Positions 2,160-61,439 of a DNA stretch of 64,000 bases are shown piece by piece; position 1 is the first letter of the stretch, and each line of letters begins with the position of its first letter. The position numbers and the translations under genes were made by a program. The notes under the pieces are model-generated. The model did not search any database. It saw only the letters and a program-made list of their open reading frames with translations, and was not told where the DNA came from. Origin of the DNA: Coptis chinensis (Eukaryota > Streptophyta > Magnoliopsida > Ranunculales > Ranunculaceae); assembly GCA_015680905.1 (NCBI GenBank), contig CM027380.1:11054001-11118000 (forward strand), given 5' to 3'.

Positions 2160-2160
2160 C

Positions 2161-2179
2161 AAAAACAAAGTCTAAATGC
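2161..2179. repeat. Left target-site duplication of the LINE-type insertion
   Basis: The 19-base string aaaaacaaagtctaaatgc occurs here and again at 4062-4080, directly after an A-run. This is the expected product of target-primed reverse transcription. The A bases shared with the poly(A) tail make its exact left edge ambiguous by a few bases. Confidence 0.9.
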
Positions 2180-4774: not shown

Positions 4775-5548
4775 AGAATTTACAGTAACTAAAAAGTAAT
4801 CACATATTCACAGCAAAATGTCAATAACTGAGAAGTAAAAACACCATATCATCAATCTAGTTAGTAAATTTGGGGACATGAATTATTCGGAACGTGAATT
4901 GGGTATAATTCGGTTTCAATTTCGAAACATTTGGGGAAAAATTCGGTCATATATTTGTTGTACAGCAAATATTCGTCTATATGTTTATTCGTGTATAATT
5001 TGATTTTATATAATAAAAATTCGTACACATAAACTACTTCCATTTTATGAAATATAGGTCAAAATCACAGATAATTACTTATATTAAGCGTTCTAAATAG
5101 TATTTTTAAGCTATATATATATTTTTTAACCACCACATCACATCTTAACAAATTGGATTCTTTTCGAGAAAAATATATTTTTTTAAAAAAAAACTGCCTA
5201 ATATTTGGACCGAATTATTTCCGAATCCGAATTTTACCTGTTTAGAACTTTTTCCCGAATGATTCGTTTTCAAAAATTGTGTTTAATACGCAAATTAAAC
5301 CCGAACAAGGATCGTCAATCAACTTTATTCTTTCGTCTTCTTTATCTCGTCGTCCTCAAGAAAAGGCAGTTGCAGAATCATCCATACATCTCCGGTCAAC
5401 ACCTACTAATTTGGGCCAATGATTCATTAGCCGGCAAAATGGGTCATTATCGAAAGTGATATAGACAGACTGGCAAGACCAAATTTGAACTCTGCTCCTA
5501 TATATTATTACTAAACGTTTACACGTTCTTCCTACTGAATTCGCAAAG
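4775..5548 (+). promoter_or_regulatory. 5' flank of receptor-kinase copy 1
   Basis: No gene is seen. The part from about 5187 is shared with the 5' flank of copy 2: tgcctaatatttgg is found again near 20630, and cccgaatgattcgttttc again near 33568. A ctatatatt box at about 5499-5507 lies 40-50 bases before the start codon and is a plausible TATA element. Confidence 0.5.
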
Positions 5549-8225: not shown

Positions 8226-8862
8226 GTAGGAATTCAAATATCAACATGAGTTGATTTCAGTCCTTTTTCCAATGCATGAAAATCAATTCAATATCTGGTA
8301 TACTGCATTAGTTATAATATTTATGTGCCCATATTTTAGTGACACTCAAATGCTTTTATTTGCCTATTTTCCCCCCATGTTAAGTTAGACACCATTAACA
8401 GCCCAGTTAAACGACCTGATATAGGTACAGGAGGGCCTTGGATAGTTGGATGTTTTAAGCTCCGGAGCTTATAACATAGTTATTTAGATATTTTTAAAGA
8501 GGAAAAATGAATTGTTAGTGCAAATGAAAAGCTGTTAGAGTGAATAAAAACTATCAACTTAATCTAACTTCTTTTCTGTCCATATTAGTTGAGTTAGAAT
8601 TAAAAAGATCGAGGATAATGACGAAAGAACTGTGGTTGTAGCGGTAATTAAGCAAGTTTGTTTACTTCTATCAACATCTTAAGTGGCGATTGTGAGGACC
8701 TTTTCAATTTCTCTGTAGTATAATGGATGTAAAGCATTACGATATTACAATTATATATATACTGTTTTCATTTTCTTTTTTCTTTCCAATGGCTCTTAAT
8801 ATATTTATTTTTTTACTTTTAAATGGTTTTATGGAAACTAGTGATTGATGTATATGTTGCAG
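8226..8862 (+). other. Phase-1 intron of receptor-kinase copy 1
   Basis: GT donor at 8226 and an AG acceptor in tgttgcag ending at 8862. Joining restores GAA, giving GYAAPEYGMG, the usual kinase subdomain VIII context. Copy 2 has the same intron at 37119-37767. Confidence 0.85.
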
Positions 8863-13217: not shown

Positions 13218-13736
13218 CTATTCCTCTTTGAAGAGAACTGAACTGATAGCGAAGTCAGACACAGCTAAGTATAGCCCCAGCGTTTCACCATCAATTGGTT
13301 TGGCTAGCACAGGTGGTGTTGACAAGTAGTCCTTGAGAGTGGAGAACGCTTGGTGGCATTGCTCATTCCATGAGAATTGTTCACCCTTCTTGAGAATTTG
13401 TAGGAAAGGTCGGCATTTGTCTGATGCTCTCGATATAAATCGGTTTAGAGCTGCCACCATTCCTGACAGTTTCTGTATCTGCTTCTTTGTTTTTGGGTCG
13501 GGCATGTCCAAGAATGCTCGAATCTGATCAGGGTTTGCTTCTATCCCACATTGTGAGACCTGATACCCCAGAAATTTCCCAGAGGACGCTCCAAAGAGGC
13601 ATTTCTCAGGGTTAAGCTTCATCTCAGTTCGCCGAAGTCTGGAGAATGCTTGTGTGAGGTGATCTAAGTGATCTCCAGCTTTCTTACTTTTAACGACCAT
13701 GTCGTCTATGTAGACTTCCATGGTGTCACCTAACAT
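13218..13736 (-). pseudogene. Gypsy reverse transcriptase, C-terminal half
   Basis: Contains the catalytic YIDDMVVKS box, FLGYQVSQCGIEANPDQIRA and the connection region up to VLAKPIDGETLGLYLAVSD. The N-terminal half continues on the same strand at 13740-14390 in broken frames. Confidence 0.92.
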
Positions 13737-13739
13737 GTC

Positions 13740-19050: not shown

Positions 19051-20601
19051 CGGGCCGGCTACGTCGACATACTATTCTAACATACTATCTTGACATACCC
19101 ATCCGACCCTCAAATCAAACAAAATCTAATGGCTAGATCTATTTCTAGAAAACCAAGCAAATAAAAGAAAATGGGTCACAAATAACAACGGGGCAAAAAT
19201 GTTATTTTCTTTCACACAAATAGAAAAATCATTTTATTCTTTTCACAACTCGTTCTTCTTCTTCATACACGTTTTTTTTTTCTCCACCAAAAACAAGCTC
19301 TCGCTTGACGCGAAAGAATGAAATTTAAGGTCTTTTTTTTTCCCAAAATTTATGTTTGGTAATTTATACGATTCATCCTTCAACTTAAACATATTGAAGA
19401 TGGTGTATTCATGTTCCTTTTATATATATCAATGATTGAACAGGCAACTCCAAATGTCATTTTCTTTTAGAAAACTGACTCTACTCCCTCTTAAAGGGGT
19501 ATATCCTTGTGTATTTTCACTGGTTTAAACTTGCATTTCTATTTTATGTACATGGATTGATTTTTCTCTCATGTTCAAGGTTTCTACATATCTATTGGCT
19601 TCTCAAATCTGAATCATGCAATAAAGTACACCAAAGTTGGGCATGAAGGATGACAGCTTAGACTGAAAACTAGTGTAAATTATGTTTTGGGTTGTATTCT
19701 TGTCAAATTTTCGACTTCTCTGAGATAGTGAGTCTTCTTGACATGGACAGGTTGCCACCAAATAATCGAAGATTATAGTTCCAAAACCTATAAAATTTAG
19801 ATTTCTGTAGGTAGAGGCAACCAGTTTGCACAGACATAAGAATTTATAAACTTAGCGACCTGGAGGTCCGTAGGCTAAAAGAAATCAAATACATCATTAG
19901 CTTAAACGAAGCAAAATATTTTACAACAAATACTATACTGCGGTTGAGAACAAGAAAATCTCATACTATTTTTTAAAATGGAAAACAAAGGAAACCCCAC
20001 GTTTCTAACCTCATTTCAGTTCACTAATTTAACTTCTATATCTTGTGGTGTTTGTTCTTTCTCTGTTTCACTTGTTTGAATTAAATTTTTGGTTAACTTC
20101 GATGGTTTTATACTATTATAAGAACTTTAATGGTTTTATACCAAAATAAGAACTTCAATGCAAATGAAGTTATTGTTGGATGTATGGGTGTTTATTTTCC
20201 CTGAGTTTTGGGTTCTTTCTTACTAACAGCACGTAGGCTTGAAGGAAATATTGGTCTTCAATGTCGACAACAGACCAATATCAACAATGCTTATATGGAT
20301 ATTCTCCTTACCCATAGCTGCCTTTACTCCCTTTAGTTCGAAGCTCACAAACAAGAAGAAGATAAGAGAACTCCACGGCTTTGACAAAACTATTAAAAAT
20401 TAATAATCTCGCGAAGAAAGAATTGAAATTAATGTGAATGACGAAAAACAAGCTTGTGAAAAAGGCAAAAATATCAATTTTGCCCTTTCTTATTTGTTTG
20501 GTTTCTTATATGCACATCTAGACGTTAGATTGTATAAGATCTGACGGTTGACTAGGTATGGCAAGATAGTATGTTAGAATAGTATGTCAAGATATGGCAA
20601 G
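19051..20601. mobile_element. Non-autonomous DNA transposon with long terminal inverted repeats (MULE-like)
   Basis: A 1.55-kb unit whose ends are inverted copies of each other over about 150 bases. Both read gacatactattctaacatac then tatcttg, and further inward aaccaa[g/a]caaataa. It lies in AT-dinucleotide sequence on both sides (tatatatata), so a 9-10 bp target duplication is possible but not provable. No ORF of note lies inside. Long TIRs favour a Mutator-like origin, but the superfamily is inference. Confidence 0.75.
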
Positions 20602-20614
20602 ATATATATATATT

Positions 20615-21095
20615 TTAAAAAACTGCCTAATATTTAGACTGAATTATTTTCGAATCTGAATTTTACCCGTTTACAACTTTTGAACACATATGCAAACTAT
20701 GCTACACATTTTTTTTTTTTTTTTTTTTTTTTTTCCCCTAAAGTCTTAAAGTCTTGAAACCCGTCCCTCGAGATCAATAGTTAACATGATTTGTTTGGAT
20801 TCTAATTGTAATTGGTAATTGTAATTATGTAGGAAAGGCTCATCTATTTTTTTTAATAGAGAATAATTATGTTATTTAAGGGACATTAGGAAAGGTTTTT
20901 CTAAATTATTAATAAAAGAGAGTTTGTTCTAATATTAGCAGAGAAATTAGGAATAATTATATAATTTAAATGATATTAGGGAGACTTTTCTAAATTATTA
21001 ATAAATAGGGGGTTTGTTCTAATTTTTGTGAGGGAGGTGTTTTGAAATTAAGCAACTATGAGATTACAAATTGCCTACTCGACAGTGGATAGGGG
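20615..21095. other. Receptor-kinase 5'-flank remnant and AT-rich repeats
   Basis: Positions 20624-20685 match the distal 5' flank of copy 1 near 5187. They are followed by a T-run (20710-20734) and an imperfect direct repeat (gttatttaagggacattagg near 20870, a related copy near 20965, both followed by ctaaattattaataaa). No gene is seen. Confidence 0.55.
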
Positions 21096-21104
21096 TTCCT
21101 AAAT
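21096..21104. repeat. Left 9-bp target-site duplication of the large MULE (ttcctaaat)
   Basis: Identical to 33494-33502. Nine-base duplications are the hallmark of Mutator-like transposition. Confidence 0.93.
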
Positions 21105-21424
21105 GGGTATTGCTATATACAAACCCCATATATCTCAAGGCAAACCCCATTTAAAAAAAATTAATACCAGATATGTCCCCAAATAATCTCTTAAGGCAGA
21201 CTCCACTTAAAAAGTGAAAACACATAAATTTCAACTTTTGTCTTTTTACTCTCTCTCAAGAAACCTTCTTTAAACCCACATTTTTTTTCCACTCCTCTCA
21301 TTTTCCAATCCAAATAAACTTAACCCACACATCTCTTCTTTCTCTACACATATTCATCGTCTTTTTCAAATTATTTTGTTCTATTTTTATTTACAACCCA
21401 TCTTTTTGTTTTTCATTTTTTTTT

Positions 21425-23428
21425 ATGACATTGAGTGAAATGGAATGGGCATATGATGTTTTTAATGTGAAAAATGAACTATTTAATGAAGAGAAATTTC
21501 AATCAAGTGACCAAGACGGCGACCAAGACGAGGTAACTCCATATACAACTATTGTTCATAATGATTCCAATATCAATTTATTATGAAATCATTATGAGGA
21601 CGACTTGTACAAAATGTGATTACAAAGTATTTATGCAAACTCAATCTATAAGGACGATCTCTTCCGTTTAATGGTTGATTTGAATAGTGAGTGTTGGGAA
21701 ATGGGAATAGTCTTACGTTCGAGACGCCCCAGAGCCAACTAACTTTCTAAGACTCGCTACCTTGGAGGCGACTTATGAAGCATTAGACAATCTAATTTGG
21801 CCGTCTCTTAGTTACTTTGATAGATATCCTATATTTTTCTTGTGACAAATATTTAGCTAACATTATAATTCACTGTAAATGTTATAGGATCCTCTATACA
21901 GTCACAATGAGGTACCAATTGATGCACTTCGGACTTCACAAAATTCAAATGCATCTTCGGAGGAGCACTACATAGATCAAACCGAACATTTTAACACCAA
22001 CATGGTATGCATGGATGAATATATGTTTTGAAACTTACTTTTTTTATTTAATACCTTCTTACCCATGGATTAATGAATACTTAAATTGATTTATAGGTAT
22101 TTGATAGTCGTCAAGATTTGATTGATTGGACACAACATAAAGGAAGTGAAGTGGGAGCTATTATCGTCACTGGGAAATCTCAAAATGCAATTGGTGGGAA
22201 GGCTCCTAGACTTATTTTGATATGTGAGCGTGGTGGTAAATTTCGATCTCGTAAAAAGGTAGAAGCAAACGAGAAGGCAGTGAGAAAGACTGGAACAAAA
22301 AAGATGAATTGTCCTTTTAAATTAAAAGCGTGTTTTGAATGTGGTAGTTTAGATAGATGGACACTAAGAGTTGATTGTGGTCGTCATAATCATGGGATGG
22401 CAAAAACTATGGAAGGTCACTCTTATATGGGAAGGTTTAATAAGATGGAAATGATTCTTGTATCTGAGATGAGTAGAGTTGGAGTCAAACCAAAAAAGGT
22501 CATGAATGCTGTCAAAGCAAGAGATATATTAAACTCATCCTCCATGAGACAAATGTATAACGCAAGACACAGAATTAGACTTGATGAAATGGAAAATAGA
22601 ACACAGTTACAAGAGTTGGGTAGATTGTTAAGGGAAAATGGATATGTGGAGTATAGTAAACGTCGAGAAGGTAGCAATGAGGTTTGCAAATTGTTTTGGG
22701 CCCATCCGGGTTCGATCCAAATGGCTAAGACTTTTAACCAAAATTTTCTCATGGATTGTACGTATAGGACAAACAAGTATCATTTCAAGTTGTTAGAGAT
22801 TGCAGGAGTGACATCGACCAATATGACTTTCACTGCATGTCATGTGTTGATGGAAAAGGAAAAAGATTATGACTACACTTGGGAATTGGAAAGGTTTCGA
22901 GAGATACTCATGCCTGAAGTTCCAGTGTTGATTGTGACTGATAGGGAGCTAGCTTTGAAGAATGCGGCCGATGTAGTCTTTCTAAATGCAAAGAAGCACT
23001 TGTGTCGATGGCACATTTCCCAATGTGTCTTTAAAATGGGAAAAAATATTCTCAGTGACGAGCAAAACATAAATAAACTTTGTGCCATGTGGACTAATAT
23101 GGTAAAGTCAAAGACACAGAAGAGTTTTTTGAGAAAGTTTGCTTCTATAGAATTAGCTTTTAAAGATTATCATGTGCTCATCCAATATTTGCGTAGAACA
23201 TGGTTGCCTTACAAAGAAGCATTTGTTGCTTACTGGATAGACCAACAAAAGCACTATGGAAGCACTACGACGAATAGGGTGGAAGGATTGCATGCTCGAC
23301 TGAAGTGGAGCTTGAAGGGGACATGCAAACATGATTTTCTTGGAATGTGGAAATTGATCCATCCAGTTATCAATATTGAGATGAGCGAAATTAGAGCCTC
23401 TTTTGAGAGGAGTTTAACTAGATTTTAG
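21425..23428 (+). pseudogene. MULE transposase (FAR1/MURA-like), three exons, with nonsense codon
   Basis: Exons 21425-21532, 21888-22004 and 22097-23428 have GT-AG junctions and stay in frame (MTLSEMEWAYDVF; DPLYSHNEVP; VFDSRQDLIDW). The product cuts element ends as a nuclear DDE transposase. A WRKY-GCM1-type zinc motif is present (CPFKLKACFECG, then CGRHNH). The catalytic core has FLMDCTYRTNKYHFKLLEIA and VLIVTDRELALKNA, each with an Asp, the conserved CRWH of the insertion domain, and TNRVEGLHARLK with the presumed Glu. A TAG at 23426-23428 (after SLTRF) ends it where homologues would read a glutamine. The frame then shifts in a T-run before the SWIM domain. Confidence 0.88.
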
Positions 23429-23429
23429 C

Positions 23430-24233
23430 ATGAGCACAATGACGAGTTTTTTTAGTGAGCTCAGAGGATTTATTTCAAAGAGAGCTTTAGATTTGATTTT
23501 GGAAGAGATGAGACATATAGATGTCATTGGGGTAGATGATAGTGTTTGCGACCACACTTTGCGTACTTCACACGGTTTGCCGTGTGCGCATGAGCTAGTG
23601 ATACTCAAACAAAAAGGGTGTAGAATACCTCTTTCTGAAATTGATGAATTTTGGAAAAAGTTGTCTATTGAACTGAAAGCCAGTGATCCCATTGGTGTTG
23701 ATTACAAACCAGCTATGGATTTATTTATTCAACGACTAGGATCGACTTCTGAAGATCAACAGAGATCTATGATAAAGATGCTCATGGAACTTGCAATGCC
23801 TGAAAGTTCATCATTGGAGCCACCAAAGGAGGATGTTACACCTAAAGGCCGTCCTAAGGGCAGTACTAAGAAGAGGCCAGCAAAAGAAGAGTGGTCAACT
23901 ACCCGAGATCCGTCATGGTTTGAGTACCCTCCGGATGCTCCACCCGTGACTCCACAATCTATAACGAAGCCCAAGGCCAAACCATTTGTTCCAAAGAGGA
24001 AGAAACCAAATTTTGATGTTGGTTGCTCCATTAATGAAATTGAACATCCTCCAGATGCTCCACCCGTGACTCCACAATCTATAACGAAGCCCAAGGCCAA
24101 ACCATATGTTTCAAAGAGGAAGAAACAAAATGTTGATGTTGGTTGCTCCATTAATGAAATTGAACATCCTCTAGATGCTCCACCTGTGACTCTACAATCT
24201 ATAACGAAGCCCAAGGCCAAACCATATGTTTGA
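23430..24233 (+). pseudogene. MULE transposase C-terminal region: SWIM zinc finger and repeated linker
   Basis: Continues the transposase in a shifted frame: FFSELRGFISKRALDLILEE, then the SWIM motif CDHTLRTSHGLPCAHEL (C-x-H form for zinc and DNA or protein contact). A basic linker with PKGRPKGSTKKRPAKEEW follows, then a 40-residue unit (PPDAPPVTPQSITKPKAKP to NEIEH) repeated nearly three times. The third repeat is closed by TGA where the second has TCA. The linker joins the transposase to the OTU domain. Confidence 0.85.
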
Positions 24234-24290
24234 AAGGGGAAGAAGAAACTGAGTTTTGATGTCAGTTGCTCCATTGCTCAATCTGGATAT
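23931..24290 (+). repeat. 120-bp coding tandem repeat in the transposase-OTU linker
   Basis: Three units starting at about 23931, 24051 and 24171 share ccagatgctccacccgtgac and aagcccaaggccaaaccat. They differ at only a few bases, so the amplification is recent relative to the element. Each encodes 40 residues rich in Pro and Lys. Confidence 0.9.
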
Positions 24291-24889
24291 AAAATGTGTT
24301 TTTCGCGTGAATTGCTACAGTTTATTGTTGGTTTTGAAGACCCCGTCGGCGATGGAAATTGTGGTTTCAGGGCTCTCTGCTTGGCTTTGGGAAGAAAAGA
24401 AACCGACTGGTTTTGGATGAGACAAGAGTTATTAAGTGAGTTAATGTCAAATGAGGAATATTATGTGAGGATATTTTCCCAGGAAGCTGTTGATGGATTA
24501 AATAAAAGGATAAGGATCGTGCCAAGAGGAACAAATGGATGGATATGCCTATTACTGGGTATTTGTTTGCGTCGAGATTTGACGTTGTGCTTGTACAGTT
24601 CTCTACATCATATTGTTATACATTTCTCCCTATGAGATTTCCAATGGATCTAAACAATGTTAATGTGCTTGGGATCGGTTATGTTAATAGTAATCATTAC
24701 ATTAAACTAGATTTGGAAGATGGTTGCCCAATTCCAAAAATAGTGTTGTTTTGGAGCAGGAATAGTCTAGAAATAGCAAAAAGCTGGGAAATTCTAGTGA
24801 AAAACCGTGTGGAGGCATTCCAAGGGTTGAATGTTCAAGGGATTGCTCAAGCGGAGGCTTTCGAAGGAGATCCAATTTTTGTCGATTAA
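24240..24889 (+). pseudogene. OTU-family cysteine protease domain of the MULE
   Basis: Reads FIVGFEDPVGDGNCGFRALC, which has the OTU catalytic Asp and Cys (DGNCGFRA). After a one-base frameshift near 24535 it continues MDMPITGYLFASRFDVVLVQ, then GIGYVNSNHYIKLDL with the catalytic His and DGCPIPKIVLFW. OTU proteases remove ubiquitin-like modifiers. Their role in transposons is not established; protecting the transposase from turnover is a reasonable guess. The domain appears to be the C-terminal end of the same polypeptide as the transposase, separated by a nonsense codon at 24231-24233. Confidence 0.85.
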
Positions 24890-25119
24890 TGTAGTTGGGC
24901 AAATAGATGTTTGAAATATTTTATACTTTTACAGAGGATACATGAAGAAACATTTTTTGCGATGAAAAGTTTTTGTAAAGACTTTGATAGAATGGAATTG
25001 AGTTTCTTATATATTTTGGAACCAAACATTTTACATATTTTAATTTTGATGTTTCGACTTTCATTGTTTACATGTATTGGTCTGAAACATTTTGCCAAAA
25101 TTTCAAATTAGTTAGAGTT

Positions 25120-25690
25120 TTAATTTTGATCAAAACTAACCTAAAAAATAAAAGATGTTCAAATTAGGCTAACTCGGTGCATTGGATGGTTGAATTTGGA
25201 CCGTTTATAAATATAGGAGATTGTGTTGGACCTGTCTTAAGAACGGTTCATTGGAACCAACTTTAAAATAAAAGATGTTCATATTAAGCTAACTCCGTTT
25301 GCATTGGATGGTTGGAATGGACCGTCTTAGAAAGATAGGAGATTGTGTCCTGTCTTAATTAAGAACAGTTCATTGGAACCAACTTTAAAATAAAAGACGT
25401 TCAGATTAGGCTAACTCTGTTTGCATTGGATGGTTGGACTGGACCGTCTTAGAAAGATAGGAGATTGTGTTGGACCTGTCTTAAGAACGGTTCATTGGAA
25501 CCAACTTTAAAATAAAAGACGTTCATATTAGGCTAACTCCGTTTGCATTGGATGGTTGGACTGGACCATCTTAGAAAGATAGGAGATTGTGTTGGACTTG
25601 TCTTAAGAACGGTTCATTGGAACCAACTTTAAAATAAAAGACGTTCAGATTAGGCTAACTCCGTCTGCATTGGATGGTTGGATTTGGACT
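25120..25690. repeat. Tandem array of five units of about 121 bp
   Basis: Units begin near 25145, 25266, 25387, 25509 and 25631 with aaaataaaaga[t/c]gttc. Each contains ctaactccgtttgcattgg, then gaaagataggagattgtgtt and gaacggttcattggaacc. The copies are 85-95% alike. More decayed relatives of the same unit lie at 26930-27430. The array is inside the MULE, between the OTU domain and the captured genes. There are no unrelated spacers, so it is a satellite-like array. Confidence 0.9.
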
Positions 25691-25713
25691 ATCCCATCTC
25701 GTTTTGGATAGCT

Positions 25714-26430
25714 GATCTAAACTATTTAATTGGTCAAAATTGGTCAATTTTTAGTAATTCACTCAAATTTGGTTCACAGTGGCTGACAAAATCTTTATTT
25801 TAAGACAATAATTAAAAAAACATTACTAACCATTGTTTATACACCTAAATGTTACATATTCATTTTATGGTCTTCCCCACTGCACTATATGAGTTTAGGG
25901 TTTAAGGTTTATGGGTAAGGTTTTGTACTTTACAGAGATGTGAATGAAATTAAATTTGAACAATATATTTTTTTCTTTAATTCAAAATTTATTATTGAAT
26001 TTTGGCTCACAAAATTAGTTTTGGAATTTAAATACACGACTCAGTTTAGGGTTTTGGGTTTATAAACCGTTTAGTTGGTCAAAATTGGTTAATTTTTAGT
26101 AATTCACTCAAATTTGGTTCACAGTGGCTGACAAAATCTTTATTTTAAGACAATAATTAAAAAAATATTACTAACCATTGTTTATACACCTAAATGTTAC
26201 ATATTTATTTTATGGTCTTCTCCACTACACTATAGCCTATAGATGTACATATGGGTTCAGGGTTTAAGGTTTATGAATAAGGTTTTGTACTTTACAGAAA
26301 TGTGAATGAAATTGAATTTGAACAACATTTTTTTTTCTTTAATTCAAAATTTATTATTGAATTTTGGCTCACAAAATTATTTTTGGAATTTAAATACACA
26401 ACTCAATTTAGGATTTAGGGTTTTGGGTTC
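25714..26430. repeat. Direct repeat, two copies of about 345 bp
   Basis: The string ggtcaaaattgg starts at 25732 and 26077. From each point about 340 bases are nearly the same (ttcactcaaatttggttcac, cattgtttatacacctaaat, ggttttgtactttacag). It is non-coding. Together with the adjoining 121-bp array it suggests repeated unequal exchange inside the MULE. Confidence 0.88.
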
Positions 26431-26930
26431 AGAGCATATATATAGTGAAGGAAAACTTTGATTCAAAATTTTTGGTCAATTGATTTGTAGTTTTTTTTAT
26501 TTTTTTCATATGAAGTCTTGAATATGAAATTTAAATTGAAATTTCCCGCCCAAATTTTAAAATTTGAATTTGAATTTGAATTTTAAATTTTAGTAAAATT
26601 TCGAACACAATATTTTGGTAATTTGGTTTGTATTCTTCATTTCATGTTCAATACAATATGAAAACATGAATTGAATTGAAATTGGAGTTAGTGATAACAC
26701 AAAACCAACTTGAAATTCAAAACACAAAATTGAAATTGAAATTTTTTGCCCAAAATTTCAAATTTCAAATTGGATTTTAAATTTCAGTGAAATCTCGAAT
26801 CCTGCCCAAAATTTGAATTTGAATTTTGAAATCCGACCTTAGAGTAAGTTGTACCGAAATATTTTGTCAAAATTTCAAATTTCAAATGAAGAGAGATGTG
26901 TTGGTCAGAATGGTTCAATTTAACTAACTT
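26431..26930. other. AT-rich simple sequence inside the MULE
   Basis: Dominated by irregular repeats of aatttgaa and aaatttca. No ORF of interest is present. The composition resembles internal sequence of plant DNA transposons. Confidence 0.6.
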
Positions 26931-27430
26931 AAAAAAAGTAGATGTTCACATTGGGCTACTCTATGCCCTCTTTTGTTAGTTGGAATGGACCGCCTTTATA
27001 CATATTTAAAATGTGTAGGTCCTGCATTAGGAATGATTTAATTGAACTAACTTATATAAACAAAGATGTTCCAGTTAGACTATCCCTTTATGCCTCTTTT
27101 GGTTGGACTGGACTGTCTTACACTTAGATTAGATTTTGCTGGCTAGCTTTGTTTGATTTAGTTGGTTGGACTGGACTATCTTATAGTTAGATTAGATTTT
27201 GCTAGTCCTACATTAAGATCGGTTTAAATAAACTAACTTAAAGCGAAAAGACGTTCTCATTAGGCTAGTGTTTCGGCTTTAGTTGGTTGGACTGGACTGT
27301 CTTACTAGATTAGATTTTGCTAGTCCTGTATTAAGATCAGTTTAAATAAACTAACTTAAAGCGAAAAGACGTTCTCAACTGGCTAGCATTTCTACTTTAG
27401 TTAGTTGGACTGGACTGTTTTACACCGAAA
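26931..27430. repeat. Degenerate tandem repeats related to the 121-bp array
   Basis: Four to five irregular units contain agatgttcacattgggct or agacgttctcattaggctag, followed by gttggactggactgtctta. They share the skeleton of the 25.1-25.7 kb units but with shorter and variable periods, so they look like an older part of the same array. Confidence 0.75.
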
Positions 27431-27767
27431 GATGGAATTTTTTCTAGCAAGTTATTAGTAAGTTATCACATTTCTGTAAAGATGGATATCACATTTCTTT
27501 CTCCACCAAAATTTGTTTGAAACACTTATGACATTTAGGAAGAGATTACAACAACCAAAGTCAGTTAAATCAAAAAATTTAGTGTCTCAGTGATCCATCA
27601 AATAGTCAGTTTATTCTCTGAATTCTAACTTCCAATTTCTATTCCATTTGAGAAGATCACTATCATAAGCAACATTGATCACCTTAATATAATATATATG
27701 ATTTTAACATCAAAATTAATTAAAATGACTAGTATGCTGGTTTATGAAATAGAAAGATTGCAAAACC

Positions 27768-28274
27768 TTACTTAAGAAGTTGTCGCAGTAATCCACATTG
27801 GAGGAGGCCAAAACAACTGAGAGTATCCCGCATAATGGCCAATGGTGTAATACTACCATTCTCCAGACTAAACACGCCTATAGAATGACGATTAAATGCA
27901 GTCTCCTCTACCTTAAACGATTGAAAGTACCTATCCGTAAAATATATACAATTCCCTTTACTTCCATACAAATCAGAAGCTGGAGCACAAAAGGAGCAAT
28001 TATCACTCAAGAACAATAACCGGTCACCCAAACTTTTGAGCTCAACCCAAGTCTTCTCCCACTTATCCAACCTATATACTATAAATAGCAATGTAGTATC
28101 CATAACATAAGTGTCATCATTAGGAACATAATTTTCATTATCATTCCAAAAGTTCAAATCATCGGAAGTGTGGTTAAAATTGTTTCTATCAAATCTTTGT
28201 AAGGGCTCCTTTGACTGCAACATATACAAATACAGAATCGTCTGTAGTTCTCCAAGCAATCCTACAAAAAACAT
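27768..28274 (-). pseudogene. DUF295 (F-box/KIB-type) gene fragment captured by the MULE
   Basis: The minus-strand frame reads DKWEKTWVELKSLGDRLLFL, then NCSFCAPASDLYGSKGNCIY and FTDRYF, and ends IGVFSLENGSITPL. This is the C-terminal DUF295 pattern of plant F-box proteins (SKIP23/KIB-like), which normally act as SCF substrate adaptors. No F-box is found upstream. A short upstream stretch (28290-28320) reads QPPAKLGKLLVY, possibly an earlier piece of the same gene. Its place inside the MULE in the same orientation as the PMD gene suggests capture of host coding sequence, but it could equally be a chance decayed neighbour carried along. Confidence 0.8.
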
Positions 28275-28605
28275 AAACTAACAACTTCCCCAACTTAGCA
28301 GGTGGTTGAGTCCAATGAACATGTCAACAAGAACAGAGGATTAGGAGATAAAATCCCCCAGCCCGATAACACTTCAGTTATCTAGATAATAAGAGATAAA
28401 ACACTTAAATAACAGTTAAGTTAGCTAGATAATATAATAAGAGATAAAATCCCACAACCCGAAGAATCATCCCAACCCACTACAAAACCCCTAGTATAAA
28501 GTCATCAAAGACACAAGTTTTAGACAGGAGACAAAATGAGAGCATCTATTAGATGTTCCATGATAAAAAAACCCCAATTAGATAGAAACACCAACATTAA
28601 CACCA

Positions 28606-30936
28606 TCACTTCTTTCTCTTCTGCCTCATTGCAAGTTGTCGTTTTGTCAACTTTGTTGTGTCAATGTCCATGTTATCTCCACTATTTTCACCACCATCTC
28701 CACCATTATCTTGACCACCCCTACTATTTTCACCAACATCTCCACTATTTTCACCCCCACCTCGACTTTGTGAACTTTCTTGAATAATTTGTTGGAATTG
28801 GAGAATGTTGTATATCATCTTCTCACGTGCTAACATCCCATGAACATCTTGGGTTCCTCCTATGTCCAACGATTCTTTAAGCAACCTTGTCGCTTCTGTT
28901 ACAATAAGTTCCTATATATAAAGTAATTTGACAATTAAATGCATATCACAAATATGACTAACATTAGATATATTATATTTTTCGAACATAATGAAATCGA
29001 ATACGAGTAGGAATAAAAAATATATATACATCTTACCCAATTTACAGGTGGAAGTCTATGAACTTATGAAAAGTGCTTCGGATTCCGTGATTACGAGGAT
29101 GGCTAATATTGTTGAACCAATCTATGTATCTATTAACGTAATCCGAGGAAGCCACAACAGGTTCACCACGTTCAAACTTAGACAAAACATGATTATTCCC
29201 GGCGTCCACAATCGGGAAAAAGTGTAATGATTCACATTGTATCGCACATTTATTTTTTTACTACCATATTTAGGTTGAATCGGCATACCAGGAATCCTTT
29301 GAACATATCCAACCTGACGTAGAACTCGGTCAATATTGTAGCCTTCACTATATCAAGCACACACAATACGCCATTAAAAAAAGTAACGTCGTCTAATGGT
29401 CGGATGTCACGAACATTTTTGTAAGGGTCCCAATAAACCTAACACACAAAAATTCATAATTGTTATTCTCTTCCATCATTTTACAAACTAACAAATTATA
29501 ATAAGAAAGTATTAAACTTATATCCTTACTTCTCTAGCTGATAATAAGTCTATCTCCTCCCGAAGGTAGATAAAAGAAGACAATGTGGCCATTGAAAGTG
29601 AGGGATATACCATCCACCGTCTCATGCGAGGCATATCCCTTTTAAAGTCCATATTGATCATGGGAGAATTTTGAAGACGAAAGTGTTTATACACCCAAGC
29701 CTACAAAAGTATTTTGTGAACAAATCAAATTTTAAAAATGAGATAACTCCCTACAATAATAAAATACTACTTACTTCCAACAATGTCATACACCCGGCAA
29801 CTTGTCTCCCATTTCGTTGAGATGCTTTTGCCAACTCCCTATATAAATAAGCCAACGCAGCAGCACCCCAAGCATACTTTGAAACATTGTCAACCTCCAA
29901 AGAATACCGCAAGTAGGCAACGTGTACACCAACTCCCGACTTGTCATTGAAGATTGTACACCCCAAAAGAAACAACAAATAAGCTCGAACATGACAATCA
30001 ACAATTTCAGTCGTAGCATCTTCGGGCGTGTTAGAGAATGTCTTCCTTAACCACTCTAGAGTCACATGCCCCTTTTTCACTTTGGGTACATTTTCGGCCG
30101 TCAAACCAAGCCCTTGTATAAGCAATTCTTCTGCTTTTCCTTTATCTAACAAATAGATTCCCTCCACTGGAAGACCTTTGATTGGAATCCCCAAAATTTG
30201 GCTGACATCATCGAGAGTAATGGTCATCTCGCCAAATGGGAGATGGAAAGTAGTTGTTTCTTGATGCCATCTCTCACAAAATGTTGAAATCACTACTGCA
30301 TTGAAGTTTTTCCATGAATACAAGGCTAAGTTTAACAACCCAGTAGCTTCTAGCTTCTTTTGGAAAAGAGGTGATTCTTCACTTATGTCCCATTGCTCTA
30401 GTTTGACGGTATGGTGGTGCAGTTTTAGAATACCCCTTTCCTACAAAATTAAACAAGATTTTAATTTAATAAATAATTAAATAAATAACACGACTATAAA
30501 ATGAATTAAGCATAGATGTAAAAAAAAAAACCTTTCCAGCCCAAATCTTGCGAGCAATATGGTCCTCATAATCGACCAAAACTTTGCTATCTATAGGACC
30601 TCCGGAATATATTCCCAATTTAGACTCTCCATCACTCTCGTTCTCATCAACTTGATGCAAATTTTCTTCTTGCCCATTAGAAACATCTATCTCCTCATCA
30701 TGTTCTTCTTCCAACTCAACATTATCTACTTGCTTCAAATTTTCTTCTTGCCCATTAGAAACCTCTATCTCCTCATCATGTTCTTCTTCCAACTCAACAT
30801 TCTCGTCTTCTTCAATATGGTCTTCTACAACTATTGCTTTTTTGGTTTTTCGTATTAGATGAGATGCCGTTTGGGGCATCCTAACTGAAGGCTGGCGACT
30901 AGAGACAACTTTCCCTTTCTTTTTTCAGGGCGGCAT
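28606..30936 (-). pseudogene. Plant mobile domain (PMD, MAIN/MAIL-like) gene, five exons
   Basis: Exons, minus strand: 30532-30936, 29775-30440, 29530-29700, about 29045-29438, and 28606-28911. Exon 2 holds the PMD core: FCERWHQETTTFHLPFGEMT, LDDVSQILGIPIKGLPVEG, LGCTIFNDKSG and AWGAAALAYLYRELA. Exon 3 reads AWVYKHFRLQNSP and MPRMRRWMVYPS. Exon 4 has VYWDPYKNVRDIRPLDD, and in a shifted frame VLRQVGYVQRIPG and YVNRYIDWFNNISHP. The N terminus is acidic with two DVELEEEHDEEI-like repeats. The last exon is glycine- and asparagine-rich and ends KRQLAMRQKRKK. PMD proteins are found in plant nuclei and in MULE and Gypsy elements. Lesions: a TGA four codons after the likely start (30936) and at least one frameshift in exon 4. 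Confidence 0.85.
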
Positions 30937-33410
30937 GACTATCTTTGTAATATGTCAATAGCTAACAATGGTCAAATTTCAATTACAACCCAAACTTTAT
31001 GATGCAAGACAGAAAATGCAAGCTTTTGAAGTGAACGAATTTAGTAAGTGAAACCCCAAGCACAACATGCAAGGAAATGAGATAAAAGTCATAAAACTAG
31101 ACAGACACATTTTTGTGTATGCGACTATGTACTATCCTAGTATGTGATACCGTCTTTTGCATATTCATTTTCCTCTTTATTCTGTGCATTTTCAGAAATA
31201 AAATCCACAATTTAATAATTGGGAACAAAGCTTCTTACATTAATTAAAATGAACAAATCAAATCAAGTTTCCTAGTTGATCTGATGTTAGAGCTACAGTA
31301 ACTTACAATCAATGTTTCGTTATGACACCCTGAAGAATTGTAAAACTACTATGCGTGTTTGCGGTTGACGTGTTGATCTATGCCATCCCGGATAGTAGTC
31401 CTGAAATCAGTGAACCCAAATAAAAAACAGGGCGTGATTCAGTGGTTTATTTCTTTCTTAATAAGCATCAGTGCCCATGTACTCAAGGGTCTCATGCAAT
31501 ATCAGCCTAAGTGCCTAATGCATATAGCTACGGTAATTTAGTTAAGAGCAATAGCAATCTACCAATCTTGTATCCTCTGTACGGTAGACAGATATATCAA
31601 CTTATCAAGTGTGAACAAACTATATAGTAATACTGACCCCTAACCTTTCAAGAAGACAGCAACAACCTTTATTAAACAAAATATAGCTGACAGTCAGTTT
31701 TTATTGGAGACGGAAGTATGGATTGCGGAGAACTTATAAACTGATTTTGTCCATTTTCCATGGTTAGGAAGGAAAAAGAGGGGGAAAAAAAGGGGACCAT
31801 CTAAAGATACCCTATAGAAACTAGGAATTTTCAAACATTATGAGGAAAACGATAGTGTGTAGAACAGTGACAGTTTTCCTTTTTTTTATATACAGAACAC
31901 AGTTGACATTCAAGATGCCAAATTGAATCCAATTTCAGTTCCTATGGGCAAACATGAAGTTATAGGCCTATAACTTCTAATGGCTTCCTAAACTTGGTTT
32001 TCATCAATAATAGCATCATAGTTCATAGTTCAAACAGAATGTTACATCTTATGGTGATTTTGTTTCCTCATTCAAAGTATACTTCAAAGACAAATGATAG
32101 GACACACTGAATACTGTAAGTGTATCAGAGTTCAAAATTTAAGGATTAATGTTTCCTTATACCTTTTATGACCAACAGTTTGAAAAATAAGAGTTGTTCC
32201 TTGTTTCTACAACTTAAAACCTAACATTTACAAGATCGATCTTGTGAAATGATTGTCATCCAACTGGCACAAAACTATAAGCACAAGACACCCCTAAAAA
32301 TGACACAAACAAGGCGCCTCCATCCAACCTTATGCCCTACCACAACTCACTGTCACCTGAAAAAGATGAAATAAACTTCGCTTCTACCATTTTCGGATGG
32401 GCGTACCACCACAGAAACCGTCGATATGCCAATCACCAACCTATAGGTTATGACCCAAACGAAACATCTTAGCTTTTACAGATGCGCTCCATGAAAATAT
32501 GGAGACTCACAACGATTGAAATCGAAGGCACAAAAATCACCTGGTGCTATGGGTAAAACAATTCTAGCAACAAGGTGTCGCCAGCGCTGGTTATATAAAT
32601 GTGAAACATAGTCATTCAAAGTATACTTCAAAGACAAATGATAGGACACACTGAATACTGTAAGTGTATAAGAGTTCAAAATTTAAGGTATAAGGTATAC
32701 TTGGAACAAAGTCGACTTATATAGACCCAATCTACATTTCTAGTTCTAAAATGCTTGCATTATTCTTGTCCTACTTGGAAAACTAAAACGTTTTCTTCAC
32801 AAATTCGTAAACACAAACAAGAACTCGAGTAAAAAACTAACTACATAGCTATGAATCAAGTATGAAGATTATACCTATTACCCAAATCTTAAAAACAAAT
32901 AATCAAACCATAAGACAGCACAGTTAAACAAAAGTTAAGTTAAAATGGGTAATAAAAAAGTTCTTATTACCTTAAACACTTGGTTTCCTCAAATTATCAA
33001 GAGTCTCCTGGTGGTAATGGTCATTCAATGAAGAAAAATCAAATCTTGCAGCTGCCAATAAAACATCACCACATATCAGCTAAACACGTTAACAACTTAT
33101 ACATTACAACATTGAACTAAACATAACATTACCAGATAACCCAGCCTTTAAACATGATTCAAGGACTTCCACAGATTATGATTTGGGCCCAAGTGTTCCA
33201 ACGATTTTAGTCAAATATGGTAAAAACTTAACACGTTTTAAAACTCATTTTTCATTATAACATCTTAAAAATAGGAAGAAGAATTTTTTTTTAAAAAAAG
33301 GTGGCTCACAATGTTGTATTTTAGAGGAGGAAGAAAGAGAACAGGCGAAGGAGAAAGTGAAAAGAGAAAATAAAGTTTTTGGTTTTTGAGGCCCAGGGTG
33401 GGTATCCCCA
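30937..33410. other. Non-coding right arm of the MULE
   Basis: No convincing gene. It contains a 79-base direct repeat (32074-32152 and 32612-32690, beginning tcattcaaagtatacttcaa). The final 80 bases form the right terminal inverted repeat. Confidence 0.6.
32074..32690. repeat. Pair of 79-bp direct repeats in the MULE right arm
   Basis: Copies at 32074-32152 and 32612-32690 differ at one or two bases (aagtgtatcagag versus aagtgtataagag) and are separated by 459 unrelated bases. A recent internal duplication is likely. Confidence 0.85.
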
Positions 33411-33493
33411 ACGATAATTTTAAATTTGGGGTCTGCTTTGAGAAAAAATGGGGTCTGCCTTGAGAGATATGGGGTCTGTATATAGTCCTTCCC

Positions 33494-33502
33494 TTCCTAA
33501 AT
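33494..33502. repeat. Right 9-bp target-site duplication of the large MULE (ttcctaaat)
   Basis: Identical to 21096-21104, directly after the final CCC of the right terminal inverted repeat. Confidence 0.93.
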
Positions 33503-33718
33503 ACCCAACTATCATATACCGTAGAGATACCAAAATTTGTCCGAATCCGAATAATAACCTTATTTTTCCCGAATGATTCGTTTTCAAAAATTGCGTTTAA
33601 TACGCGAATTAAATGCGAACAAGGATCATCAACTCAGTTTTAAATACTTAATCGTCAATCAACTTTATTCTTTCGTCTTCTTTATCTCGTCGTCCTCAAG
33701 AAAAAGCAGTTGCAGAAT
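33503..33718 (+). promoter_or_regulatory. Distal 5' flank of receptor-kinase copy 2
   Basis: From about 33565 this matches the copy 1 flank (cccgaatgattcgttttc, gtcaatcaactttattcttt, gaaaaagcagttgcagaatc). It has a short insertion duplicating tcatcaactcagttttaaat relative to copy 1. No ORF of note is seen. Confidence 0.6.
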
Positions 33719-33727
33719 CATCCATAC

Positions 33728-34157
33728 CATAGTACAAAATATCAGGATATGGATATTTATCGATCTCTGATTTATGGATATGTATCGTGGATATATCTCT
33801 CTCTTTGGGGATATTTGACATTGTTTCTCATACAAATATCGTGAATATATTCAAAATATCGACAAATATCGTAGATATTGTGGATATTTCTTAATATATC
33901 ATTATACATTATTTATATTTATTTGAAATATAATGGTAAATATTAAATAAAATTGTTACATATACAAAATATCGCCAAATGTCTCCAAATATCGCAAAAT
34001 ATCCCTAAATATCACAAATAGCGAAAATATCATTGAAATATCACTGATATTTATAGTCGTATATATCTCTGAACATATCGGGATATTTATATATCTTTTT
34101 CTGAAATTTAGATAAATATCTACAAATATCACGATATATCAAGATATTTTGTACTAT
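33728..34157. mobile_element. 430-bp MITE-like element in the 5' flank of receptor-kinase copy 2
   Basis: The ends are inverted (atagtacaaaatatc at the left, gatattttgtactat at the right). The unit is flanked by the 9-base repeat catccatac (33719-33727 and 34158-34166). Copy 1 has catccatac once at the equivalent place (near 5379), so an empty site is available for comparison. The interior is made of degenerate gatat/atatc motifs. The superfamily is uncertain; a 9-bp duplication points to Mutator-like. Confidence 0.82.
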
Positions 34158-34158: not shown

Positions 34159-34401
34159 ATCCATACAACTATAAAGCAAAAGATTTATACTAAACTAGTA
34201 ACATCTCCATTAAACACCTACTAATTTTGGCCAATGATTCATTAGCCTACAAAATGGGTCATTATCGAAAGTGACATAGACAGACTGGAAAGACCAAATT
34301 GACAAAATGGGTCATTATCGAAAGTGACATAGACAGTAGTAGGTGTTTACTGGAGATGTTACTAGTTTAGTATAAATCTTTTGCTTTATAGTTGTATGGA
34401 T
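34159..34401. repeat. 65-bp inverted repeat (palindrome with 113-bp loop) upstream of receptor-kinase copy 2
   Basis: The arms 34159-34223 and 34337-34401 are inverted copies with about one mismatch (ccattaaac versus ccagtaaac). The loop holds a direct repeat of about 35 bases (aaatgggtcattatcgaaag at 34252 and 34309). The right arm supplies a TATAAAT at 34371, about 70 bases before the start codon, in place of the copy 1 ctatatatt. The transcript, if started upstream, could form a long hairpin. Confidence 0.88.
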
Positions 34402-34444
34402 TATTACTAAACGTTTACACGTTCTTCCTACTGAATTCGCAAAG

Positions 34445-37118
34445 ATGATTTCAAAGCAGGCATTTACATTACTTAACGTTTACATGTTCTTCCTACTCTT
34501 TAACCAATTGATGTCACAAACAAAATCTTGTATGGCCACCTCAGAAAATGAGACTGATCTTCACTCTCTAATCGCTATTAGAGATGGAATTGAAGGCGGC
34601 TTAAGCTCGTGGAACCAATCTTTCTATTTCTGTCAGTGGCAAGGCATTACATGCGGCAAGCGTCATCAAAGAGTCATAAGTTTGAATCTTTCCAGCCAGA
34701 GTTTGGTTGGATCGTTATCGCCTCATATTGGAAACCTCACTTTCCTAAGGTTCATCCGCCTGCAACACAATCAACTCTATGGGAAGATTCCACAAGAAAT
34801 TGGTCGGTTATTTCGTCTTCAAGTACTCAGTCTGTGGGATAACACTTTCGTTGGAGAAATTCCAGTCAATCTAACCCAATGTACTGAACTCAGGTCCATT
34901 GATTTAAGTTCGAACAAATTGTCAGGGAATATTCCGGCAAAGCTTGGCTCACTGTCAAAGCTTGTATTCTTGCTTATTAGAAGAAACAATTTGACAGGAG
35001 TGCTACCTCCTTCTTTAGGTAATCTTTCGTCGCTTCAAGCCTTCTATGCAGAAGAAAATGAATTGGTTAGAAGTATTCCAGCCAGCTTTGGTAGACTGTC
35101 AAACTTAATACAGTTCCTTGTTGGGGGTAATAAACTGTCTGGTGAGGTCCCTTTGACAATTTTTAACATCTCATCCCTGACCCATTTAGCAATTTACATT
35201 AACCAATTTAGTGGTAGTCTTCCACCAGAAATGGGCATCACTCTTCCTAATCTCGTTCAATTCCTTGGGGGTGGAAATCAACTTTCTGGACTACTCCCAG
35301 TTTCACTAGCTAATGCTTCTAAACTTCAAAAATTTGATATTTCAAAAAACAATTTCGATGGACAAGTTCCTAAGGATTTTCAATTCCCACAAACTATCGA
35401 GTTGATAAATCTTGGAAAGAATCATCTAGGAACAGGAGAAGCTGATGATTTGAGTTTTATCACTTATTTGACCAACACCAGTAATCTAAAGATATTGGAC
35501 TTGCACCAAAACAATTTTGGAGGTGTTTTACCAAACTCTATTACCAATCTCTCCAACCAAATGGAAAGGTTGTATCTAGGATACAATCAAATATCCGGAA
35601 TCATCCCAGAAGGGATTGGGAACCTCGTCAATTTGTTTATATTATCTCTCTCTTCTAATAACTTTTACGGTAGTATTCCATCTTCTATTGGAAAACTTCA
35701 TAGTTTACAGGCGTTAGCTCTTAATGCGAACAAACTGTCTGGACCAATCCCATCTTTTTTAGCAAACAATACTAAATTGAGTGAGTTATATTTAGAAATG
35801 AACAGACTGGAAGGAAATATTCCTTCATGTCTTGGTGCTCTTAGCCATTTGCAAGAACTGTATCTGTTACAAAACAACCTAAATGGTACCCTACCTAAAG
35901 AGATCTTTAATATTTCCTCTCTGCTTTTACTTTACTTCTCTATGAACTCCTTAACTGGTTCCCTCCCTTTAGTAGTAGGAAAACTAAAACATATTGTTCT
36001 AATGGATGCGTCTGGAAATAAGTTATCTGGTCCATTGCCTATTACTCTTGGTGAGTGTGAGCGTCTGGAAAAGTTATACTTGTATGATAATTTGTTTGAA
36101 GGGACAATTCCTCAATCTTTCAGTTCTTTAAAGAATGTGAAAGAGTTAGATCTATCAAGCAACAACTTGTCTGGTGGAATTCCGAAATATTTAGAGGTCT
36201 TTCCGTATCTCCAGTTGTTGAATCTATCCTTCAATAAACTTGAAGGTGAGGTACCAGTGAACGGAATCTTTAAAATTGCAAGCAATTTTTCAGTAGCTGG
36301 AAATTCTGATATCTGTGGGGGTATACACGAACTGCAATTGCTGCCATGCCGAATTAACAATTCTAAAAAGCAAGGAAGGTTCGATCATTCCAAAATAGCA
36401 ATTATCATCAGTGTGGTCGTGTTTATTCTTTTGGCATCATGTTCTATGATATTTTACTTGAGAAGAAAAGGTAAACTTAAAACGGCTTCTTTGCCATCAA
36501 TCAGTGATCAGCATGTTAAGGTCTCTTATGGAGATCTTTCTCAAGCGACTGGTGGATTTTCTCCAACTAATTTTGTTGGTTCAGGTGGTTTTGGAAGTGT
36601 GTATAAGGGAATGCTCAACCAATATGAAGCTGTTGTTGCTGTTAAGGTGTTCAAACTTCAATTGAGAGGATCGTTAAAGAGTTTCATGGTAGAGTGTGAA
36701 TCATTGCGTAATATCCGCCATCGAAATCTTGTTAAGATTCTAACTTCTTGCTCTAGTGTAGATTATGAAGGAAATGAATTCAAAGCACTAGTCTTTGAGT
36801 TCATGCCAAATGGAAGTCTAGAGAAGTGGTTGCATCAAGAGATCAGTGAACAAGATGAAGAATCGAATTTGAACCTACTTCAAAGACTAAATGTCGCCAT
36901 TGATGTTGCTTTTGCACTTAGCTATCTTCATCACGAATGCCACGCTTTGGTTATTCATCGTGATCTAAAGCCAAGCAATGTGCTTCTTGATAAGGATATG
37001 GTAGCTCATGTTGGTGATTTTGGTTTAGCAAAGCTTCTTTCGGGATCGATAGAGAACTTGCATGACAATCAAAGTACCTCAGTAGGGGTAAAGGGATCTA
37101 TTGGCTATGCCGCTCCAG
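34445..37118 (+). CDS. LRR receptor-like kinase copy 2, exon 1 (intact)
   Basis: Predicted plasma-membrane receptor kinase of the LRR-XII type. Signal peptide at residues 1-30 (NVYMFFLLFNQLM). The LRR N-terminal cap has CQWQGITCGKRHQR. About twenty LRRs follow, then a cysteine pair (DICGGIHELQLLPC), a membrane span from about residue 650 (IAIIISVVVFILLASC), and the kinase. The glycine loop is VGSGGFGSVYKG (about 711), the ATP lysine VAVKVFK (K734), the catalytic loop HRDLKPSN (D840), and DFG (D858). Most members of this subfamily are non-RD (HCD); this one has an arginine before the Asp. Substrate and ligand are unknown. It ends GYAAP plus one base before intron donor GTAGG at 37119. No stops or frameshifts were found. 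It is about 90% identical to copy 1 over the LRR region. Confidence 0.92.
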
Positions 37119-37767
37119 GTAGGAATTCAAAGATCGACATGAGTTGATGTCAGTCCTTTTTCCAATTCATAAATGCATGAAAATCAATATCTGGTATACT
37201 ACATTAGTTATAATATTTATGTGTCCATATTTTTGTGACACTCAAATGCTTTTATTTGCCTCTTTTTCCCCCATGTTAAGTTAGACACCATTAACAACCC
37301 AGTTACACGAGCTGATATAGGTATAGGAGTGCCTTGGATAGTTGAATGTTTTCCGCTCTGGAGCTTATAGCATAGTTATTTAGATATTTTTAAAGAGGAA
37401 AAATGAATTGTTAGTGCAAATGAAAAGCTGTTAGACTGAATAAAAACTATCAACTTAATCTAACTTCTTTTCTGTCCATGTTAGTTGAGTTAGAATTGAA
37501 AAAATTGAGGATGATGAAAGAACTGTGGTTGTAGTGGTAATTAAGCTAGTTTGTTTACTTCTATCAACATCTTAAGTGACGATTGTGAGGACCTTTTCAA
37601 TTTCTCTATAGTATAATGGATGTAAAGCACTAAAGCATTACGATATTATATATATATATATATATTCTGTTTTCATTTTCTTTTTGCTTGCCAATGGCTC
37701 TTAATATATTTATTTTTTTACTTTTAAATGGTTTTATGGAAACTAGTGATTGATGTATATGTTGCAG
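37119..37767 (+). other. Phase-1 intron of receptor-kinase copy 2
   Basis: GT at 37119 and AG at 37766-37767 (atgttgcag). Length and sequence match the copy 1 intron closely. Confidence 0.88.
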
Positions 37768-60762: not shown

Positions 60763-61439
60763 CTGTTCCCAATAGATCTCCTGTTTGGAGGTAGATCAAC
60801 TAAGTCCCATACTTTGTTTTTCTTCATCGACTCCAATTCTTCCTTCATAGCTTCCATCCACTTACTTGTATTGGACCCAGAAATAGCCTCCTTTAACGTT
60901 TTAGGTTCATTAGATATTTCTGTAACTGCATTGGTCATATTTATCTCCCCTTCAATCTCAAACCGACATTTGGGGATATGGCCTCTAACACTCTTACGAG
61001 GTTGGGATTGATCAATCAGTTGACCAATGCCATTGTCACTGGAATCAGGGTTGATGAAAGTTTCATCTTCGCTTTGTTCATCAGCAGTTATAAGGTTGTC
61101 AACTTCGTAAAGTTGTATATCCTTATCAACCTCACCCCTCATTGGGTATTGATCCTCCAAGAATCTGACGTTACGTGCTTCTATTTCTGTGACATGCCCT
61201 TGAGTATCCTCCCCTAGGAAGACATACCCCTTAGAAGTCTCATTGTATCTTATAAAGACACACTTCTTTCCAGGAGCACTCAACTTCCCAAATTCTCGAT
61301 TTTGAGAAGTGACAAAGGCTACACACCCCCATGGTCTAAGGTAGTTCAAAACGGGTTGTCTACCAGTCCATAGTTCATAGGGTGTTTTGTCAACAGATTT
61401 TGAAGGAACTAGGTTAAGTATGTGCGCAGCCGTAAACAA
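60763..61439 (-). pseudogene. Copia integrase C-terminal part to reverse transcriptase N terminus
   Basis: Reads AHILNLVPSKSVDKTPYELW, then GCVAFVTSQNREFGKLSAPG and GYVFLGEDTQGHVTEIEARN, a variable acidic linker, and KWMEAMKEELESMKKNKVWD and RSIGNRWVLKIKKNAEG at the start of reverse transcriptase. This is the longest open stretch of the element (about 230 codons). Confidence 0.9.

Follow-up and report, generated by a model that had tools for sequence, protein, structure and literature searches.

Does the plant mobile domain (PMD) gene inside a Mutator-like element (MULE) of Coptis chinensis belong to the element's family, or was it captured once by a single copy? The question arises from a stretch of 64,000 nucleotides (the window; contig CM027380.1 of assembly GCA_015680905.1, positions 11,054,001 to 11,118,000, forward strand), in which a sequence-only reading had delimited a 12.4-kb element at positions 21105-33493 with a transposase, an OTU protease domain, a PMD gene on the opposite strand and a DUF295 piece. 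This interval is one degenerate copy of a C. chinensis MULE family with terminal inverted repeats (TIRs). In the anatomy that we regard as highly probable, the family core consists of two convergent genes, which face each other across a spacer of tandem-repeat motifs. One encodes a PMD protein, the other a transposase of FAR1/AFT-MULE-SWIM type that ends in an OTU domain; variable slots contain captured host fragments, here one of KIB1-4 type.

Linkage of the OTU and PMD genes

Searches of the Coptis genome returned at least 43 matches to the right 300 bp of the element (40 of 146 candidates scored), at least 41 to the left 300 bp (40 of 122) and at least 40 loci for the OTU stretch (40 of 70). 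With the PMD exon, for which 150 of 2856 candidates were scored, at least 34 loci reached 60% identity once second pieces of a locus had been merged; the next group of PMDs lies at 40-55% identity. When parts were clustered by place, which demanded a single orientation, the order left end, OTU, PMD, right end was found at seven loci, including that of the window, with partial versions at others; 31 of the 34 listed close PMD loci are accompanied by one or more other parts of the family, an end or the OTU stretch. Without the demand on orientation, 23 of the 34 had a listed OTU within 32 kb, and every one of these 23 pairs was convergent.

The same arrangement was found beyond the family. A comparison of 110 distant PMD places with 141 OTU places that belong to another subfamily (141 of 2466 candidates) gave 20 pairs no more than 15 kb apart, among them those of L072 and of the query locus L074. 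All 20 are convergent, where placement at random yields 0.54 on average and 3 at most. The pairing is thus older than the family of the window element. Because OTU and PMD genes accompany each other repeatedly and with constant orientation, PMD is best regarded as a core part of the family, and a single capture is rejected on this linkage, convergent in 23 of 23 pairs within the family and in 20 of 20 outside it. On the choice that the sequence-only reading could not make from one copy, this recurrence speaks for a core gene.

Three distant loci, L072, L073 and L074, were read in detail, having been chosen for their PMD frames, and in all three the OTU transposase faces the PMD gene. Their PMDs share about 40-55% of residues with that of the window element and have long open frames. 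The ratio of non-synonymous to synonymous substitution rates (dN/dS) is low: for PMD it is 0.35 (L072-L073) and 0.32 (L073-L074), both at a dS of about 1.1, and 0.45 (L072-L074, where dS is only 0.16), and for OTU 0.32 (L073-L074, dS 0.98), in alignments that may include a few intron codons. Between these loci and the family of the window element, synonymous sites are saturated.

The transposase and its OTU domain

The transposase runs on the plus strand. Its first coding block (21888-22007) is matched at 100% by the annotated Coptis protein P0152, and the next part (22097-23428), with an AFT/FAR1-like N-terminus and the MULE domain, is open until a stop that follows a frame change. Pfam finds MULE (PF10551) at E 1e-20 within 22097-23425. 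The FAR1 profile is unmatched in this copy, and AFT alone appears, at 21.1 bits under a cut-off of 21.6. A SWIM-like region with 40-residue repeats (120-bp unit) follows at 23418-24233, in another frame in this copy; it has no Pfam SWIM match, and the C-x-H...C-x-H string was read from the sequence. Of the FAR1-like transposase with a SWIM finger that had been read here, the MULE domain is confirmed, the FAR1 label lacks a profile match, and the finger is a string read from the letters.

The OTU domain (24234-24889), with DGNC and NHY motifs, forms the C-terminus of the same protein and is frame-broken in this copy. By Pfam, its best match is Peptidase_C65 at E 0.22; even in the relative P0022, where C65 reaches 9.6e-4, the score of 19.1 bits stays under the cut-off of 24.3, and copies L062 and L070 have no OTU or C65 match, so that the Pfam OTU models miss family copies. 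In L062 and L070, an undivided reading frame (348 and 379 residues, respectively) covers the C-terminal transposase linker and the OTU part, and at the distant locus L072 a single 528-residue frame spans the transposase core, the SWIM-like part and OTU. The DGNC and NHY motifs are present in other family copies.

Seven weak matches, with E between 0.078 and 0.77, came from a profile search of PDB sequences. Three were to VCPIP1 and one each to OTUD5 and OTUD3; the other two were chains that bear the label RNA-dependent RNA polymerase and belong to entries titled viral OTU domains. The AlphaFold model of the domain is modest, with a mean pLDDT (the predicted confidence score) of 59.1 and 70-89 in the core blocks. 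With this model, Foldseek placed OTUD3 first (E 2.2e-4) among four matches at E ≤ 0.001; the 50 listed of 173 rows are OTU-family or otubain-type proteases, that at rank 36 being titled only 'ubiquitin protease'. The predicted structure thus shows an OTU fold, which together with the DGxC and H motifs is characteristic of the OTU family. The OTU domain of the sequence-only reading is in this way established through other copies, fold and relatives, not through Pfam on this copy. A DGNC-type motif was found in 16 of 48 homologous plant proteins, from Coptis, Aquilegia, Cannabis, Citrus, Centaurea, Ipomoea, Gossypium, Sesbania and Spinacia; the remaining 32 lack the motif or are too short to judge.

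The PMD gene

The PMD gene lies at 28609-30936 on the minus strand, convergent with the transposase. PMD (PF10536) matches at E 3.3e-42 in 29754-30440 (145.3 bits, cut-off 34.9), the exon covering profile positions 16-181 of 347. The aligned blocks are, approximately, 30936-30532, 30440-29775, 29709-29524, 29435-29340, 29349-29037 and 28911-28609; the gene and its strand agree with what had been read, but there are five or six blocks, not clearly five exons.

DUF1985, the domain of VANC proteins, was matched at E ≤ 1 by 28 of 40 PMD proteins, which are mutually related (best 7.4e-5); the next family, DUF7745, was matched by 4 of the 40. In the Coptis genome, DUF1985 (PF09331) has many places (150 of 476 candidates scored), the best at 2.6e-9; because of these, elements of VANDAL/KIU type, or other carriers of DUF1985, may be frequent in Coptis. 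Scans of viral_contigs with the PMD and OTU alignments gave 83 and 13 pattern matches, respectively, none of which was confirmed. A PMD relative from Cinnamomum, P0063, which does not come from this element, was modelled with AlphaFold at a mean pLDDT of 76.7.

Repeats between the two genes

Two strandless blocks of tandem repeats separate the genes: a first of 122-bp repeats with GGTTGGACTGGACCGTCTTA-type motifs (25145-25682) and a second of the same repeat of about 120 bp (26907-27430). In the distant loci the corresponding space holds another motif, AAACGRYRTGGCCAYRTCGTTT, with 17, 10 and 16 strand matches (at most 3 mismatches) in L072, L073 and L074; as the motif is nearly palindromic, these amount to about 9, 5 and 8 sites. 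It has no match in eight copies of the family of the window element. Conversely, GGTTGGACTGGACYRTCTTA has 5-11 matches in each of these eight copies and none in L072, L073 or L074, so that among the 11 sequences scanned each motif is confined to its own subfamily.

Genome-wide, the exact forms occur at 588 places for the AAACGRYRTGGCCAYRTCGTTT motif (24-mer) and at 166 for the GGTTGGACTGGACYRTCTTA motif, the reversed controls at none. The 100 listed motif places span part of C1 and C2. In this part, the AAACGRYRTGGCCAYRTCGTTT motif lies within 8 kb of 13 of 28 OTU places, where 0.18 were expected and the maximum was 3; its usual position is 2-4.6 kb upstream of the OTU match or 0.6-1.5 kb downstream. 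In the spacer alone, with AT-rich words excluded, the k-mer count was 7 against a shuffle maximum of 6.

Proposed mechanism and alternatives

How would such a pair work? The transposase would act at the TIRs, the OTU domain may act in cis on a ubiquitin or ubiquitin-like tag of the transposase or of chromatin, and the PMD protein may, like VANC in VANDAL MULEs, counter silencing by the host, perhaps by way of the motif arrays in the spacer. An anti-silencing role is favoured, by analogy, because of the likeness to VANC and DUF1985, the silencing role of the host proteins MAIN and MAIL1, and published speculation; we rate it between tentative and evenly balanced. MAIN and MAIL1 are host PMD proteins that act in silencing (Ikeda et al. 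2017, PMC5418596), and the use of PMDs by MULEs against silencing has been raised as speculation (PMC5418596; also PMC8616336). DUF1985 is present in VANC, the VANDAL protein whose target motifs lie in changing tandem repeats of non-coding parts (Hosaka et al. 2017, PMC5735166). The wider picture would be a large, old MULE superfamily in which PMD, as the counterpart of VANC, reads the motif arrays of its own subfamily and lifts silencing, and in which OTU protects the transposase or strips ubiquitin from chromatin. We put this forward tentatively, as a picture that may well prove wrong.

Several results weigh against it. First, the motifs were picked after inspection; AAACGRYRTGGCCAYRTCGTTT lies near only 3 of 24 distant PMD places, 68 of the 100 listed motif places have no listed OTU or PMD nearby, and the commonest 7- to 9-mers over the whole non-coding part of the window show no excess over the shuffle maximum. 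Second, matching OTU and PMD trees, which the sequence-only reading had named as support for a core module, were not obtained within the family: OTU/transposase and PMD distances show no significant correlation (Mantel r 0.18, p 0.20, n 17), and the copies form a star-like tree, as in a burst, with one three-copy group (c1_113, c9_143 and c8_231) appearing in both trees. It is linkage and the distant subfamilies, not trees within the family, that support the core pairing. Third, between L073 and L074 the SWIM part has a dS of 0.41, lower than the 0.98 of OTU and the 1.10 of PMD, so exchange of parts between subfamilies is possible.

The main rival, which we consider unlikely, is that the PMD protein helps transposition, as MURB does in maize, and that the repeats serve as a spacer to which nothing binds. 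In its layout of two convergent genes the element resembles MuDR. Two further results favour a helper and at the same time count against the main reading: the PMD exon of the window element has no DUF1985 match, and no solved protein in the PDB resembles the P0063 model at E ≤ 0.001 (best E 1.1). A helper is harder to reconcile with the silencing role of the host PMDs MAIN and MAIL1 (PMC5418596) and with intergenic arrays that are rich in motifs and differ between subfamilies.

It seems to us improbable that PMD goes back to a single capture of a host gene and has since been carried along with little or no function. Such an origin would fit a family that carries captured RING, thioredoxin, methyltransferase and KIB1-4 fragments, and published PMD-MULE cases are described as captures (PMC5418596). 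It would also fit two results that count against the main reading: 17 of the 40 listed OTU loci have no listed PMD, and within the family there is no selection signal, the changes being evenly spread over codon positions with no position in excess. Five of those 17 loci retain the 3' flank of PMD (places on C1, C2, C3, C4 and C9), and L041, chosen as a PMD-less copy, lacks the element part 27128-30900 and keeps 30900-31111, that is the PMD gene start and its upstream sequence, as after a deletion. Because of these remnants, loss or decay of PMD appears common in the family, and PMD-free lineages are possible. A passive passenger is disfavoured by the recurrence of this convergent pair in subfamilies with PMDs of about 40-55% shared residues, and by the dN/dS near 0.3 and the long open frames found there; recent family copies look neutral, and selection is apparent between subfamilies only.

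Two nested elements whose ends merely look paired would be in keeping with a right-hand region (31030-33314) that varies among copies, but this is hardly credible, because three other copies have these two ends between perfect duplications and seven loci have an identical internal order.

Boundaries and state of the copy

The element as a single TIR-MULE (21105-33493, plus strand by transposase direction) is delimited as had been read. Its 40-nt TIR cores (21113-21152, plus; 33446-33485, minus) are 93% complementary, and the 9-bp TTCCTAAAT occurs in the window at 21096-21104 and 33494-33502 only, immediately outside the ends, as a perfect target-site duplication without strand. Such duplications in MULEs measure 8-11 bp, 9 being typical; the transposase domain, TIRs and target-site duplication of a TIR-type MULE are thus all present. 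Perfect duplications of 8-9 bp flank four of the eight family copies examined, this one included. Among the other seven, three have perfect 8-bp duplications, three match at 7 of 8 bp (one at shifted ends only) and one, whose left end is missing, has none. Because paired ends with the same contents recur in other copies, the two ends belong to one element, as the sequence-only reading had supposed.

The copy itself is broken: the transposase changes frame near 23,420 and a TGA closes the frame at 24,233, the OTU part has an internal frame change, and the PMD gene has a stop at codon 4. A scan of 20500-34000 with Rfam gave no RNA genes.

Outside the element, two related receptor-kinase-like frames with leucine-rich repeats lie on the plus strand at 34376-37144 (923 residues), about 0.9 kb past the element end, and at 5489-8251 (921 residues). 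An open frame of 563 residues at 2096-3784 (plus) has DUF4283, which is frequent in plant retroelement proteins, and fragments of reverse transcriptase at 13221-13739 and 59941-61466 (both minus), among which RVT_1 and RVT_2 are represented, are probably decayed retroelements.

Variable slots and captured fragments

Seven copies were fetched near-whole and compared with that of the window, six picked for a PMD hit and one for the lack of it, so that six of seven is no frequency. All seven share the transposase-OTU part and the repeats to about 27430, the C6 copy with an inverted piece within the OTU part; the six PMD-bearing copies also have the PMD gene in common, over a stretch that reaches from 28161 to between about 30750 and 31110 and that in one of them has an internal gap. 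Two slots, at 27430-28161 and, as a strandless region, at 31030-33314, vary among the compared copies, and other copies hold fragments of RING (4e-10), thioredoxin (3.9e-6) and homocysteine S-methyltransferase (4.1e-6) genes. At L042-L043, L046-L047 and L049, fragments of RING-H2 or thioredoxin genes lie in the two slots, which for this reason look like capture sites.

In the window copy the first slot holds a fragment (27720-28163, minus) in which Pfam finds the KIB1-4 beta-propeller, formerly DUF295, at 7.4e-20 (27771-28277, minus). Of 23 loci with the adjoining core, two contain the fragment (a count that omits nine short rows, at three places), and it was for this reason rejected as a core part; the DUF295 piece is present, as had been read, but is a captured host fragment. 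Places on C2 (98%, 97%) and C9 (96%, partial) that have it without the core look like donor and kin. Pack-MULEs hold host fragments and no transposase; the present element has host fragments but a transposase gene too, and is not one of them.

Relation to known elements and significance

Published MULEs already include carriers of PMD, of ULP1 and of anti-silencing genes. Three types come closest. First, PMD-carrying MULEs of grasses and Amborella likewise encode a PMD protein, but there PMD-C is described as fused to the transposase, through two captures (PMC5418596), whereas the element of Coptis, a eudicot, has a separate convergent PMD gene and an OTU-bearing transposase. Second, VANDALs (PMC5735166) combine a transposase with a second protein and have motifs in changing non-coding tandem repeats, and PMD has a weak similarity to DUF1985. 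VANDALs, however, are described as non-TIR elements (PMC13317346) and their motifs differ; with its TIRs, and no DUF1985 match in its PMD exon, the Coptis element is not a VANDAL, and a VANC-like role is proposed by analogy. Third, KI-MULE/KIU elements and ULP1-MULEs also bear a cysteine protease of the ubiquitin/SUMO world, in KI-MULE in reverse orientation to the transposase (PMC13317346, PMC2528002). The Coptis protease is OTU instead of ULP1 and is fused to the transposase, not placed in a second gene; no ULP1 match was found in the open reading frames scanned, which sets the element apart from this group.

The suggestion of a possibly undescribed family with OTU and PMD survives in part. 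OTU-fused MULE transposases are already among public plant proteins: those of Aquilegia (P0153), Centaurea (P0158), Citrus (P0157) and Cannabis (P0156) have the same MULE domain followed by a DGNC...NH OTU-type region, a likeness known from the proteins alone, without genomic neighbourhood, and some such homologues are named OTU domain proteins in their sources. The association of PMD with MULEs is likewise published (PMC5418596). For OTU with a MULE or FAR1 transposase, the open-licence literature returned no paper that looks related by its title, and a description of an OTU-transposase convergent with a separate PMD gene was not found there.

What PMD proteins do, and whether transposons use them against silencing, are questions left open in the available parts of PMC5418596 and PMC8616336. 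With its many copies, its recurrent OTU/PMD pair and its subfamily-specific arrays, the Coptis family offers a concrete test system outside Arabidopsis, and the OTU element represents a second design of protease-bearing MULE beside the ULP1 type. If PMD does act against silencing, the host silencing proteins MAIN and MAIL would be kin of a transposon anti-silencing factor.

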